This document shows positions 47,009 to 63,127 of a DNA stretch of 64,000 nucleotides, one piece after another. The notes beneath the pieces are model-generated. The model did no database searches. It was given only the letters and a program-made list of their open reading frames with translations, and had not been told where the DNA came from. Source of the stretch: Leeuwenhoekiella palythoae (GTDB lineage: Bacteria; Bacteroidota; Bacteroidia; Flavobacteriales; Flavobacteriaceae); NCBI RefSeq assembly GCF_900130045.1, contig NZ_FQXT01000005.1, positions 186,001 to 250,000 on the forward strand. Reading direction: 5' to 3'. Made by a program: the position numbers and the translations under genes. How positions within the stretch are numbered: the stretch's first letter is position 1; the number at the start of each line of letters is the position of its first letter.

Positions 47009-47019
47009 GTCTTTGCTAG

Positions 47020-47061
47020 TAGCGGGAACTGGACTCGAACCAGTGACCTTCGGGTTATGAG
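47020..47061 (-). pseudogene. 3' part of initiator tRNA-fMet; attachment site of the integrative element
   Basis: On the minus strand these 42 bases run from the anticodon loop CTCATAA (CAT) through the 3' anticodon stem CCCGA, variable loop, T-arm (ACTGG TTCGAGT CCAGT), acceptor TCCCGCT and discriminator A. The three C in the anticodon stem identify the initiator type. The 5' half is missing: beyond the loop, where TCGGG should be, stands AAAAA. This is the pattern left at one end of an element inserted in a tRNA gene; the intact gene should be re-formed at its far end. Confidence 0.85.
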
Positions 47062-47223: not shown

Positions 47224-48429
47224 ATGGCAACAGTAAGAGTGGTTTTAAGAAAAAAGAAAAATAAAGCCGGAAGGTTTCCTATTGCTATTCGCATAACTAA
47301 AGACCGTAAAAGTTCTTACCTAAATACAGGTCAATATATAGATGTAAAATTTTGGGACGAGAAAAACCGCAATGTTAGGAAGTCGCACCCTAATTCAAAG
47401 ATGCTGAATAATTTTATTTCAACCAAGGTTGCAGAAGCTAACGATAAGGTTTTGAAATCTGAAATGAATCCTGAGTATCAAACCGTATCGGATATTAAAA
47501 CGAAAATTATTGCTACAAAGGGACTTGATTTTTTTGCCGTAGCTGAAATGCACCTTCAAAACTTAAAAAACAGAAATAAACATCATCAGTATGACACTGA
47601 ACTTGGGCGAATAAAAAAGTTCAAGGAATTTCTTGATAAAGATATTCTTCCGTTCAACAAGCTGAATTCAACAGTTCTTAAAAAGTTTGAAACTTTCCTG
47701 CTTCACAAGAAAAAACTTGCGCCCAGAACAGTCGTGAATTATTTAATCCTTATTAGAACGATATTCAATCTTGCAATTTCTGAATCAATTGCAGATAGAG
47801 GATTATATCCATTTGGAAAAGGTAAAATGACAATCAAAATCCCAGAGGCTCAAAAAATAGGATTTAGTGCTGATGAAATACAAAAGCTAGAAAATGCAAA
47901 CGGTATTACCGAAGCACAACAAAAGGCAATCCATATTTGGCTTATCAGTTTTTACTTTGCTGGAATACGCGTTGGCGATGTTTTAAAATTAAAGTGGTCA
48001 GATTTTAATGATGGGCGCCTACTCTACCGAATGAACAAAAACAGTAAACTGGTTTCACTCAAAATTCCTGATAAAGCCATCGAAATTTTCAATCATTACA
48101 AGGAAAACTCAAATTATAATGGCCTCGTGTTTCCTCAACTGAAAGGTGTAAATCTAAATAACACCGAGGAAGTATCAAAAAGAACCCAATCCATTACCCG
48201 CAATTTGAACAGACGATTAAAAATTGCAGCAAAAAGCCTCGGAATACAGAAAAATATAAGTATGCATATTGCTCGGCATAGCTTTGGAAATATTTCTGGT
48301 GATAAAATCTCAATCCAGATGTTGCAAAAATTATATCGCCACTCTTCTGTAACTACAACGATAAGATATCAAGCAAATTTCATCCACAAAGATGCCGATG
48401 ATGCTTTGGACAGTGTAGTAAATTTTTAA
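47224..48429 (+). CDS. int: Tyrosine-type site-specific integrase
   Basis: A 401-residue recombinase of the Bacteroidota type. Residues 1-95 form the arm-binding domain (VRVVLRKKKNKAGRFPIAI), residues 105-205 the SAM-like core-binding domain, residues 210-400 the catalytic domain: Arg in FYFAGIRVGDVLKLKW, HIARHSFGN with His-x2-Arg, the second His in LYRHSSVTTTIRY, where the Tyr nucleophile follows. All catalytic residues are present, so it should be active. Its position 160 bases from the tRNA junction is standard for such elements. Confidence 0.95.
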   Translation: MATVRVVLRKKKNKAGRFPIAIRITKDRKSSYLNTGQYIDVKFWDEKNRNVRKSHPNSKMLNNFISTKVAEANDKVLKSEMNPEYQTVSDIKTKIIATKGLDFFAVAEMHLQNLKNRNKHHQYDTELGRIKKFKEFLDKDILPFNKLNSTVLKKFETFLLHKKKLAPRTVVNYLILIRTIFNLAISESIADRGLYPFGKGKMTIKIPEAQKIGFSADEIQKLENANGITEAQQKAIHIWLISFYFAGIRVGDVLKLKWSDFNDGRLLYRMNKNSKLVSLKIPDKAIEIFNHYKENSNYNGLVFPQLKGVNLNNTEEVSKRTQSITRNLNRRLKIAAKSLGIQKNISMHIARHSFGNISGDKISIQMLQKLYRHSSVTTTIRYQANFIHKDADDALDSVVNF

Positions 48430-48521
48430 GCAAAATGTTTGCCAGCTGTGAACATCTTCCATAATAATTCTAACATTTTAGAATTTCATTCTTCTACCTT
48501 TATAAGCTAAAATTTTTGCTT

Positions 48522-49427
48522 ATGGTTTTAAAGGTCAAATGGATAGATTTCAAAAGTCAAATCGATAAATATATAATTGAGGGCGAAGCTCTGGTTGAAA
48601 AATATAAATCTTCAAGAACTGAAGAAGAATTTGCCGAGTTAAAAGCTTCAAAGCAGTCTTGGGAAAATAATGTGATAGAATTTGTTAAAAAATCCTTTGA
48701 ACCAGAACACATTAATTTCGCTTATGAATTCAAAGCCCAGAGAGGCTATAATCTGGGAATGAAGTTAGGCATTGACCAAAAAATTAAAAATGTCATCCAA
48801 GCTCTAAAAGATGAAATCAATGGCCTCGAATATTACCTAAAAATACTCTTCATTTCTGATGCTATAATTCGTGCCGATGAAATTGATTTAGAAGAGCGAA
48901 AAACCCTTGATACGGAAGGCAAGCTCGACTTTATTCTTTCCAAACTTTACGACCTGTATGACGATAGAAAGTACCATTCCATTAAATGGATTCTTGAAGG
49001 CAATGGTATTGAACTGTGCGGCCATAGTGAAGATTGGGACTTTGGAAGAATGCTTGAAAATCGAAATCTAATAGAATGTCTTAATGGTAAGGACGTCAAT
49101 GCAAAACTCACATTGGAAGGAAAATATGCCATAGAGCAGGCAAGAAAAGCCCAAGTAACAGACTACTCAAAAATTAGTAGTTCTGAAGAAGAGCTAAAAG
49201 CACTTATAGAAAGTGTTTTAAAAGAAGTCAAGAAGTTGGGAATGGGCCAACAAATCATATTTGATGAATTTGATGAGCTGAGGGATGATATTCCGAAGCT
49301 GAGTAAAAAATCTTTCGGTCAACTATTAAAATCTAAGTTGTATGATTTGGTAACTGCCAAAGCCTTAGATAAAGCATTAGCCAGCGAAATATTCAAAGAA
49401 TTTACAAATCAGGTATTGCCATTTTAA
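48522..49427 (+). CDS. Unknown protein with winged-helix-like segment; cargo gene
   Basis: A 301-residue cytosolic protein. I do not recognise a family. Residues 1-90 are helical and charged, with a possible coiled coil (EALVEKYKSSRTEEEFAELK). Residues 140-210 look like a winged helix: ILSKLYDLYDDRKYHSIKWI, then GRMLENRNLIECLNG and AKLTLEGKYAIEQA as strand-turn-strand. The end is helical. ATG 48522 is preferred over TTG 48516. Three bases separate it from the nuclease-like gene, so the two are one unit. DNA binding or regulation of the nuclease is inference. Confidence 0.7.
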   Translation: MVLKVKWIDFKSQIDKYIIEGEALVEKYKSSRTEEEFAELKASKQSWENNVIEFVKKSFEPEHINFAYEFKAQRGYNLGMKLGIDQKIKNVIQALKDEINGLEYYLKILFISDAIIRADEIDLEERKTLDTEGKLDFILSKLYDLYDDRKYHSIKWILEGNGIELCGHSEDWDFGRMLENRNLIECLNGKDVNAKLTLEGKYAIEQARKAQVTDYSKISSSEEELKALIESVLKEVKKLGMGQQIIFDEFDELRDDIPKLSKKSFGQLLKSKLYDLVTAKALDKALASEIFKEFTNQVLPF

Positions 49428-49430
49428 TCT

Positions 49431-50252
49431 ATGAAGTTATTTGCAAGATTCAGGAACAAACTCAAAAAACTATTTCAGAAAAATAAACAACCTGAATATG
49501 AGGTAACGCAATTTGTGTTTTCGGACAGACAGCGTATTGATGGTAAATCGACTATTTCCTTTTTCGTAAACAATCCCAAGCCAGATGTTAGCGTAACACG
49601 AACTTTTGAGAGCGAAGATGAGACCGTTAATTCTCTTATGGACAATAACGATTTTCGAAGAATGCTATTTGAAAACTTATTTCCCGCATCCAATTCTGTA
49701 AAATACCATTGCGGTATTAAAGAGCCCATCACAGTACCTAATAAAATGCCCGGCGATATTGATATTCTTCTTTTTGAAGATGGGCAACCAGAAAATACCA
49801 TTGGTATAGAATGTAAAATTGTAAAGTCAAAATCTTCAGAGAATAAACCACCAAAAATAAATAAGGTAAACAGCGTACAGAAAAAAGGGACTCAACAAGC
49901 TAATGGATATGCTGAAATTGGTTTTAGTAGGGTCTATCTTATGGTTATACTATTGGACGATGGCCGCCATTATAAAAACCCGAATGTAATGTTTAGAAGT
50001 ACACCGACTGAATGGTTGGATGAACTTTATGGATTTGATTGGGACAGCCGGTTAGATAGTGATATAGGTATCATCTATACACACGTAAATCAATTTACTT
50101 CAAATCATATCAATCAGACCAAGGGCTTAGGACTGCGTGTTGAACGTGAAGCTGTAACTAAAGAACAAGATGAAGGTCTAACCGAAAAAATACAAAGCCT
50201 TATTCGACACGCGAAGGTACTTGCAGAATATGCGGCAAATTTGGCAAACTAA
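49431..50252 (+). CDS. PD-(D/E)XK nuclease-like protein; cargo gene
   Basis: A 273-residue protein with a basic N-terminus (FARFRNKLKKLFQKNK). The core MPGDIDILLFEDGQ...TIGIECKIVKSK places Asp109/Asp111 and the Glu127-x-Lys129 pair as in the PD-(D/E)XK nuclease fold; a helix with QQANGYAEIGFSRVYL follows, where such nucleases keep a conserved glutamine. It may cut or bind DNA. It follows the winged-helix-like gene by 3 bases; the HNH-type frame overlaps its 3' end. No named family is recognised. Confidence 0.7.
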   Translation: MKLFARFRNKLKKLFQKNKQPEYEVTQFVFSDRQRIDGKSTISFFVNNPKPDVSVTRTFESEDETVNSLMDNNDFRRMLFENLFPASNSVKYHCGIKEPITVPNKMPGDIDILLFEDGQPENTIGIECKIVKSKSSENKPPKINKVNSVQKKGTQQANGYAEIGFSRVYLMVILLDDGRHYKNPNVMFRSTPTEWLDELYGFDWDSRLDSDIGIIYTHVNQFTSNHINQTKGLGLRVEREAVTKEQDEGLTEKIQSLIRHAKVLAEYAANLAN

Positions 50253-50914
50253 CGTTCGAGCACGTTCCGCCTCAGAGTGCGTTCAACACTAACCCCGTAT
50301 TTTTTCAGAAATCAGTACATCTTCACGATAAGAAAAGTCCCTTGTATGGAAAGCGCATTCGCAGTAATCAAGGTGCTGGCGGCTATTATCTTTGCAAATC
50401 CTGCAACAACTTAACGGGCAGTTACTACGGCGAAAGCTATAAGAAGTTTGCATATATGGGAATGATGGCCGTGACAAATCGAATTTGGGCATCAAAGGTT
50501 ATAGCTTTTGAATACGCCATTCAACCTCTCAACATACTAAAGCAAGTCTTGTCTATGTTTATGTCGATTGATACAAGTGACCAACTTCTAAATTTAGAAA
50601 GGCTATCAAAATTTCTATTGGATAAAGATTCCCAGGCACTTCCAGAAAATATAAGGGTTTTTGTATATCATACTGCTACAAAGCAAGTCAGAAATGGTTG
50701 GGGAATGGCAAGAACGGAAAAAGGGTTTCACACTCTTGGTGAGATTACCTATCCACCATTTGGTTTGGTTTATGCTTTAGATTCTGAACCTACACGTAAT
50801 GATTTTTTTGAAATTTCCGGTTTCAAGAATTATGTTTTCAATCAAACTGTTCAGGCGAGATTGACCATACCTTTTTTGACACCTAAAACATATATTCCTG
50901 GCCTTTACACATAA
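50174..50914 (+). CDS. HNH-type zinc protein, start codon unresolved
   Basis: The frame is open from 50174 (after TGA 50171) to the stop at 50914, 246 codons. Its early part reads CRICGKFGKLTFEHVPPQSA (cysteines at codons 17 and 20, His at 30), with a second pair CKSCNN at codons 74-77: the zinc-ribbon/HNH arrangement of HNH endonucleases. No ATG, GTG or TTG exists before CRICG; the first TTG, at 50342, lies after the EHVPP motif and would remove it. The first 79 bases overlap the PD-(D/E)XK gene in the -1 frame. It may use a rare start, a -1 frameshift fusion, or be a broken gene. Confidence 0.6.
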   Translation, partial: RSNRKNTKPYSTREGTCRICGKFGKLTFEHVPPQSAFNTNPVFFQKSVHLHDKKSPLYGKRIRSNQGAGGYYLCKSCNNLTGSYYGESYKKFAYMGMMAVTNRIWASKVIAFEYAIQPLNILKQVLSMFMSIDTSDQLLNLERLSKFLLDKDSQALPENIRVFVYHTATKQVRNGWGMARTEKGFHTLGEITYPPFGLVYALDSEPTRNDFFEISGFKNYVFNQTVQARLTIPFLTPKTYIPGLYT

Positions 50915-62290: not shown

Positions 62291-63127
62291 ATGAACTCAC
62301 AATTGCTATCTCAAAAACTTTTAAAGGATCTGGATGAAATCAAAATTCAGAATGGAAACATTATAGAAAGTGCCTACCTTTCCATAAAGGCCTGTCGCAA
62401 ACTACTGAGCGCCTATAAAAAAGAAATAATCAAAACGAAATTTAAGACAGTTCAAGATGAGATAAATTTCTTCAAGAACACAAAGCAGATTCCACTCATT
62501 AAACTCATCTACTTTTCTGAAATACATTCATTTGAGATTCAACTTCCCAAAGGCGATAAGGATGCTCAACTAAAATCGATAAAGAAAAAAATCAATAAAA
62601 TAAATCGGTTTTTCCTTTACAATATTGATTTTGGTCGATACGTCAATTCTGGGGCTACCCATTTTGACAAGGAATATTACACACGAGATTATCTCGAAAC
62701 CTTTCATATCACAACATCCAAATTCTACTTCCAAGACCCTGAATTTTGCACACCGAGAGATATGCTTTTGGGCAAATACAAGGCGTATGATTATTTAGTG
62801 ACCTATTTTGATGAAAAGAAAGATAGGGTTCGTAACGGATTAAACGGAAAACACAAGAGCATCAAATCAATGGAAAAAATTGACTGGCCATTTTCAAATA
62901 CAGATTACGTAGAATTGCTCTATGCATTGTGTTCAAAGGGATTGGGAAAACAAAATAATCAAGGGATTATGCAAGTTTCAAAAAAGTTGGAACAACTTTT
63001 TAACATTGAACCAAAGGACATCTACAAAACCTTTCAGGACATTAAAAACAGGAAAAACAGCAGAACACTTTTTCTCGACGAACTTTCTACATCACTACTC
63101 ATTGAAATGGATAAAAGCGAGGAATAA
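62291..63127 (+). CDS. rteC: RteC-family regulator
   Basis: A 278-residue protein of the RteC family: helical N-terminal part with LSIKACRKLLSAYKKEI and FYKNTKQIPLIKLIYFSEI-like FFKNTKQIPLIKLIYF, then FDKEYYTRDYLETFHIT, and a C-terminal winged-helix-like part with FSNTDYVELLYALCSKGLG. In CTnDOT, RteC activates the excision operon by binding upstream of it. Here the gene is flanked on both sides by CCGTA-type inverted repeats, and an excisionase-like gene follows. It probably controls excision or transfer of this element. Confidence 0.9.
   Translation: MNSQLLSQKLLKDLDEIKIQNGNIIESAYLSIKACRKLLSAYKKEIIKTKFKTVQDEINFFKNTKQIPLIKLIYFSEIHSFEIQLPKGDKDAQLKSIKKKINKINRFFLYNIDFGRYVNSGATHFDKEYYTRDYLETFHITTSKFYFQDPEFCTPRDMLLGKYKAYDYLVTYFDEKKDRVRNGLNGKHKSIKSMEKIDWPFSNTDYVELLYALCSKGLGKQNNQGIMQVSKKLEQLFNIEPKDIYKTFQDIKNRKNSRTLFLDELSTSLLIEMDKSEE

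Follow-up and report, generated by a model that had tools for sequence, protein, structure and literature searches.

A candidate modular nuclease defense operon beside the integrase of an ICE-like element in Leeuwenhoekiella palythoae

In Leeuwenhoekiella palythoae, a mobile element carries directly behind its integrase a block of three genes, here called P1, P2, and P3, that probably represents a modular nuclease operon directed against phages or competing mobile DNA. On this interpretation, the block would be left-end cargo of an ICE-like element, with P1 and P2 as its core. P1 would act as a sensor or regulator, a role suggested by its residues 1-209, which have a counterpart in the first half of a TIR protein, and it would control P2 by releasing or directing it as a nuclease. 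The HNH-type protein P3 and a fourth gene, encoding a DUF4238 or SEC-C protein, would be add-on effectors that come and go, and both P2 and P3 would cut DNA. We infer defense from the DUF4238 neighbor in relatives, the link between P1 and the TIR protein, and the fact that a mobile element carries two nuclease-type proteins.

The window, by which we mean the whole stretch of 64,000 nucleotides that was analyzed, comprises bases 186001-250000 of contig C6 in a genome of 4.03 Mb. An earlier note on this DNA had described three tightly packed genes straight after the integrase, and the coordinates, order, and motifs that it gave are all correct: P1, P2, and the P3 frame follow one another, with 3 bases between the P1 stop and the P2 start, and with the P3 frame overlapping P2 (Table 1). 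As a description of the cargo, however, "three genes" was right in that all three are real and too narrow in that the operon is often longer, with a fourth gene after P3 in many relatives. The idea that all three genes form a working set in this genome is not supported, since the P3 start codon has been lost here.

Table 1. Coordinates of the element's landmarks and of the gene block, numbered by window position unless marked otherwise
Feature	Coordinates	Strand	Basis or remark
attL, 45-bp exact repeat over the tRNA-Met 3' end	47017..47061	-	
Other copy of the 45-bp repeat	84697-84741 (window-extended)		3' end of the intact tRNA-Met
Intact tRNA-Met	84699-84772 (window-extended)		
Tyrosine integrase	47224..48429	+	Arm_5, SAM_5, Phage_integrase
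Gap of 92 bp, integrase to P1	48430..48521	+	Travels with the block
P1, 301 aa	48522..49427	+	Helical N-terminus, winged-helix-like region 131-209 (suggested), conserved C-terminal domain 219-295
P2, 273 aa, PD-(D/E)XK-type (proposed)	49431..50252	+	D109, D111, E127, K129, Q156, Y160
P3 frame, HNH-type	50174..50914	+	Full-length frame, no usual start before CRIC..FEHVPP
Lost-signal site	50204..50207	+	TTGA in L062-L065, TCGA here
Insertion point of the extra SEC-C gene (~1.3 kb) of L063 and L064	50914..50917	+	Absent here and in L062
RteC homolog	62291-63127		1.7e-64

The element measures 37,725 bp, sits at a tRNA-Met gene, and begins just before the integrase. Its ends are the two copies of a 45-bp exact repeat, which supports the view that the block is integrase-adjacent cargo of an integrative element, as had been supposed. 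The 42-base core of the attL repeat has a third copy at the edge of contig C12. Judged from its gene content, the element is ICE-like: it carries metal efflux genes, an RteC homolog, an amidase, and tra-like genes, identified by eye and partly by profiles (the tra-like genes by eye only). We take RteC to be a regulator of Bacteroidetes conjugative elements. Metal-resistance-like genes, again recognized by eye, come after the P1-P2-P3 block and count against a defense reading of it. A match of the integrase to a CARF model of PADLOC was set aside as chance. Two other regions of the same element drew our attention. A four-gene condensin-like operon (window-extended 65276-71471; L059:1276-7471) looks like a divergent Wadjet-type system, with an MksE match at 5e-19, weak MukB and JetD_C matches below the cutoff, and a PADLOC JetD3 match at 0.0011. 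At the element's opposite end, beside the tRNA, there is a cluster (window-extended 81257-84655; L059:17257 to L060:655) of QueC-like (2e-21), PfkB and nucleoside deoxyribosyltransferase, Ogg-HhH (2e-17), and nitroreductase-like genes, a possible nucleotide-modification defense.

We propose that P2 is a PD-(D/E)XK nuclease. The residues to which the earlier note had pointed, D109/D111 and E127/K129, are invariant across 14 aligned rows, and so are Q156 and Y160, presumably a QxxxY motif. In a model of moderate quality (pLDDT 60.7, pTM 0.65), the predicted order is helix-strand-strand-strand-helix-strand, as in the alpha-beta-beta-beta-alpha-beta arrangement of PD-(D/E)XK proteins, and the two residue pairs fall at or on strands. 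Among 359 Foldseek matches, the best one, and the sole one at E <= 0.001, was to PaqCI, a restriction enzyme of type IIS (E 8.2e-4, TM only 0.30); SfsA, HincII, and EcoRV came next, none of them significant and all amid unrelated non-nucleases that scored about equally. P2 thus has residues, and in this moderate-quality model a predicted strand order, like those of PD-(D/E)XK restriction enzymes, but it is not recognizable by sequence as one of them in Pfam or the PDB. Searches of Pfam, PADLOC, NCBIfam, and PHROGs gave no credible match either, and its sole PDB sequence match, to isocitrate dehydrogenase (E 0.15), was dismissed as chance. A profile search for distant relatives returned 5 of 395 genomes; the match in the fifth (G156) looks by eye like isocitrate dehydrogenase and was discarded as chance too. 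Within the phylum, 4 of 296 genomes had a P2 match, including the genome studied here. The block also departs from type II restriction-modification, as no methyltransferase domain was found in P1-P3 with Pfam, the other neighbors being read by eye.

For P1, too, these four libraries gave no credible match, so that neither it nor P2 belongs to a family named there. Its predicted structure is poor (pLDDT 50), and only the order of helices and strands was used. That order agrees with the winged helix claimed previously and suggests one in the middle of the protein (131-209), but a model of this quality does not confirm it. Residues 1-209 align with the front half of a 482-aa TIR protein in a relative (29%, E 2e-22), and this protein matches Pfam TIR_2 in its rear (7.8e-9) as well as the PADLOC spbK model (2.4e-16) and ThsB models; we take SpbK and ThsB simply as PADLOC's labels for the models matched. 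Only the non-TIR front half is common to both: P1 differs from TIR proteins of this kind in having no TIR domain by Pfam, and its C-terminus is another, unnamed domain. The gene for the TIR protein (L047:9089-10537) lies 5-8 kb from a Xis-like gene and an integrase. Among 299 genomes of the family, P1 was found in 20 (full-length in 11), and its C-terminal part matches by itself in 9, in open frames of ~190-285 codons. In the phylum sample of 296 genomes, a profile search found it in five, one of which (G206) matched through the C-terminal part only. These relationships allow a more ambitious reading, which we consider possible but less likely than not: the block may belong to a new family of multi-effector immune operons in which the P1 sensor module, TIR-fused in one known protein, drives the PD-(D/E)XK nuclease. 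The HNH protein and an exchangeable fourth effector (DUF4238/SEC-C) would come behind these, and the operons would move among integrase classes at the integrase edge of integrative elements in flavobacteria.

The third frame carries the motifs CxxC, FEHVPP, and CxxCNN. An alignment of 14 rows shows C7, C10, F18, E19, C64, C67, and N68 (numbered as in L076) without exception and H20 in at least 90% of the rows, the FEHVPP histidine being replaced by arginine in L083 and L084. The zinc-type cysteine pairs of an HNH center are therefore kept. P3 resembles HNH proteins (HNH_5, PHROG 21495) in its cysteine pairs, in FEHVPP, and in weak profile matches, among them one to PHROG 21495 (function unknown) at 1.7e-6; yet its score against Pfam HNH_5 is 14.3 bits, below the cutoff of 27.5, and ~160 further residues go without a name. 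Profile searches thus bear out the view that the block encodes two proteins of nuclease type that fall in no named family. One of the 14 P3 rows matched the PADLOC "Control_protein" model (0.012). P3 was found in 9 of the 299 family genomes and is close in 5 of them. The fact that P1, P2, and P3 of the window matched no PADLOC family at E <= 1 counts against defense.

In this genome, P3 is probably not produced as a complete protein, to judge by the sequence at its junction with P2. This copy has no ATG, GTG, or TTG before the first CxxC, and the first possible start, at 50342, would remove CRICGK..FEHVPP. In L062-L065, the site reads TTGA, so that the inferred TTG start of P3 overlaps the TGA stop of P2, an arrangement that we assume to be a sign of coupled translation; in other relatives the inferred TTG start lies a few bases behind P2. 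Here, one substitution (TTG to TCG, 50204-50206) removed both signals together. As a result, P2, deprived of the stop codon present at 50205-50207 in close relatives, is extended by 15 residues, and P3 is left without a usual start before its zinc-type center. One further difference from L062-L064 adjoins the TCGA site, and an assembly error at the junction is possible. A programmed frameshift from P2 into P3 at an AAATTTG heptamer, spotted by eye, was rejected, because the heptamer lies behind the conserved CRIC and relatives can use the TTG start. Elsewhere (L044, L045, L046, L048, and relatives), P3 is cut at one shared point, right after FEH(V/I), and a short remnant is left.

Patterns of substitution indicate that all three coding sequences have been kept across genera. 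Median pairwise NG86 dN/dS was low for P1 (0.092; 28 usable of 45 pairs from 10 chosen loci), P2 (0.114; 26 of 36 pairs, 9 chosen loci), and P3 (0.057; 34 of 45 pairs, 10 chosen loci). Between the window and L062, where changes are few, the values were 0.184, 0.417, and 0.098, respectively, and for P3 against L064 the value was 0.238. Because of the figure for P2, a recent relaxation of this gene in the lineage is possible. It may be asked whether the block is simply dead cargo, decaying and idle in this genome. The copy does look degenerate, with the P2 stop and P3 start lost at one site and the fourth gene absent, and the P2 value against L062 and the cut P2 or P3 remnants of other loci point the same way. 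Still, the reading frames of P1 and P2 are uninterrupted from end to end here, and P3 still has a value of 0.098 against L062, though one of 0.238 against L064. Intact copies of the operon exist in other genomes, for example four-gene ones in the environmental relatives Zeaxanthinibacter enoshimensis DSM 18435 (L077) and Maribacter caenipelagi (L079), and we regard idleness of this copy as rather unlikely.

Beyond the window, a non-exhaustive genome scan with two short peptide patterns yielded 32 P2 loci, 16 of them labeled Flavobacteriaceae; the other genera are presumably flavobacteria as well, going by their titles. P1 stands directly before P2 in all 32, broken or partial in L064, L091, and L092. 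The earlier note had named a failure of the three genes to co-occur elsewhere as grounds for giving up its proposal, and such co-occurrence was in fact seen. With the scan loci and the low dN/dS taken together, the block is more than chance. In 30 of the 32 loci an integrase, whole or partial, precedes P1, with two genes between them in L075; none was seen by P1 in L071 and L092.

Gene retention was compared over 38 loci, i.e., the window, the 32 scan loci, and 5 further ones, which are related and were mostly found via P2, so that the counts are not independent. Near-complete genes numbered 35 for P1, 28 for P2, and 18 for P3, where 16 "stop" calls for P2 were read as near-complete (>=85% of the query) since the query carries the window's extra tail, and one for P3 (L065) was read in the same manner; the P2 of L072 ends ~14 residues early, and the first residues of P1 are missing in L071. 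In 8 of the 38 loci, L041 among them, a whole P1 goes with a P2 that is truncated, frameshifted, or missing, a pattern that would be odd for a mere sensor and that counts against our preferred reading; the reverse case, with P2 kept and P1 broken, occurs in L064. It is what one might expect if P1 and P2 were a toxin-antitoxin or addiction pair that maintains the element, with P2 as a toxic nuclease and P1 as its repressor or antidote. The 3-base spacing of the two genes and the winged-helix-like region in the low-confidence P1 model would also suit such a pair, which we nevertheless consider unlikely. P1 is large for an antidote, its N-terminus is common to a TIR protein, and the retention counts are biased by how the loci were found, one of the eight (L086) lying at a contig end.

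In what follows, we return to the reading of P1-P2 as the core of a defense operon and ask how firmly P3 and the fourth gene belong to it. DUF4238 (PF14022) follows P3 in 12 of the 38 loci, assigned by Pfam in two of them (7.3e-41 and 1.2e-40) and by similarity in the others. A SEC-C gene occurs in 5 of the 38, after P3 in four and before P1 in L075. Neither the window nor its near relative L062 has a fourth gene beside the block. Against PADLOC, the DUF4238 protein of L081 had no match at E <= 0.1, and the SEC-C protein gave weak tail matches only, the best at 3.8e-4. A single DUF4238 protein from a P2-phage hotspot, acting alone, is reported to have given strong T7 resistance in E. coli (PMC9122126), and DUF4238 is counted among defense systems (PMC12629846, PMC11291487, PMC10855318). 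The gene that follows P3 thus shares its Pfam family with a known anti-phage protein, but the window copy lacks it, and the protein of PMC9122126 is reported to act singly, without P1-P3. As for the operon itself, nothing recognizable as P1-P2-P3 appeared in the titles and abstract beginnings covered, which came mostly from outside the subscription literature.

Alternatively, the block could be a stack rather than one system, in which P1-P2 make up one unit of two genes, joined at an integrase-side hotspot by P3 and the fourth gene, each a single-gene defense in its own right. This alternative overlaps with our preferred reading, as it is compatible with defense, and we think it quite possible, if somewhat short of an even chance. 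P3-type proteins occur in 21 of 72,556 plasmid records; P1 and P2 had no match in plasmid records or phages, and none was confirmed in viral contigs. Around the plasmid relatives of P3 no P1/P2 operon was seen in six regions with incomplete gene lists, so P3 may not depend on P1 or P2. P3 itself was found in one viral contig and had no phage match. Distant relatives of P3 in L053-L055 are also free of P1 and P2 matches, DUF4238 is reported to act by itself in E. coli (PMC9122126), and the SEC-C gene follows P3 as a clean addition in L063 and L064 and precedes P1 in L075. On the other hand, every close P3 homolog seen has P1 and then a P2, whole or cut, in front of it, and the end of P2 overlaps the inferred start of P3 in L062-L065 and is only a few bases from it in others, as for coupled translation. 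A short motif, GTTAGCTGCAAGTT, is common to L053 and L054 just upstream of their P3-like genes, which suggests that these genes are cassettes of an integron-like array.

Defense cargo beside integrases is already known as such, and several lines of evidence indicate that the block is cargo here. At E <= 1e-80, the integrase was matched 68 times, in 57 of the 279 genomes searched. Flanks of 1500 bases were read for 30 of these matches: P1 was absent from 26, two of them at contig ends, and present in four, the window's own included; at least 3 of the other 38 matches (G198, G324, and G400) carry it. In L103, an integrase 86% identical to that of the window is followed by metal genes, i.e., the slot is there without the block. 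Conversely, the block stands beside three integrase classes. At four loci with another class (L042, L065, L066, and L083), DNA similarity to the window starts at 48420-48449, about the integrase stop, which means that the 92-bp gap travels with the block. Integrase classes are scattered over a P1 tree of 19 rows (8 changes, against a shuffled mean of 8.2). The metagenome-assembled genomes at L076 and L088 have identical P1 and different integrases, only the integrase end being present at L088, and L080 and L081 combine nearly identical P1 with two integrase classes. Remnants of the 3' end of a window-type integrase gene lie beside the block at L042:10463-10585, L043:10652-10774, and L075:6952 onwards, as if modules had been added at that end of the gene.

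The same data bear on whether P1, perhaps with P2, serves the integrase by controlling excision or integration. P1 mostly lies within ~100-200 bases of an integrase or its Xis-like gene, and in L041 it stands alone behind an integrase, as a partner might. But the flanks without P1, the lack of clustering by integrase class, the two intervening genes in L075, and the loci with no integrase seen make such a role very unlikely, and it was rejected as the main reading on account of the 26 of 30 flanks.

A modular defense operon with a P1-P2 core therefore remains the interpretation that we prefer. The defense role proposed in the earlier note has become likelier through the DUF4238 neighbor in relatives and the N-terminus common to a TIR protein, and it is still a role that we infer. 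If this interpretation is right, two unnamed families spread across many flavobacterial genera would form the core of an element-borne defense operon, and the front half of P1 would be a common sensor that links nuclease-based with TIR-based immunity. The integrase-side spot of these elements would then be a place where defense genes are exchanged, and it could serve as a guide to more of them.
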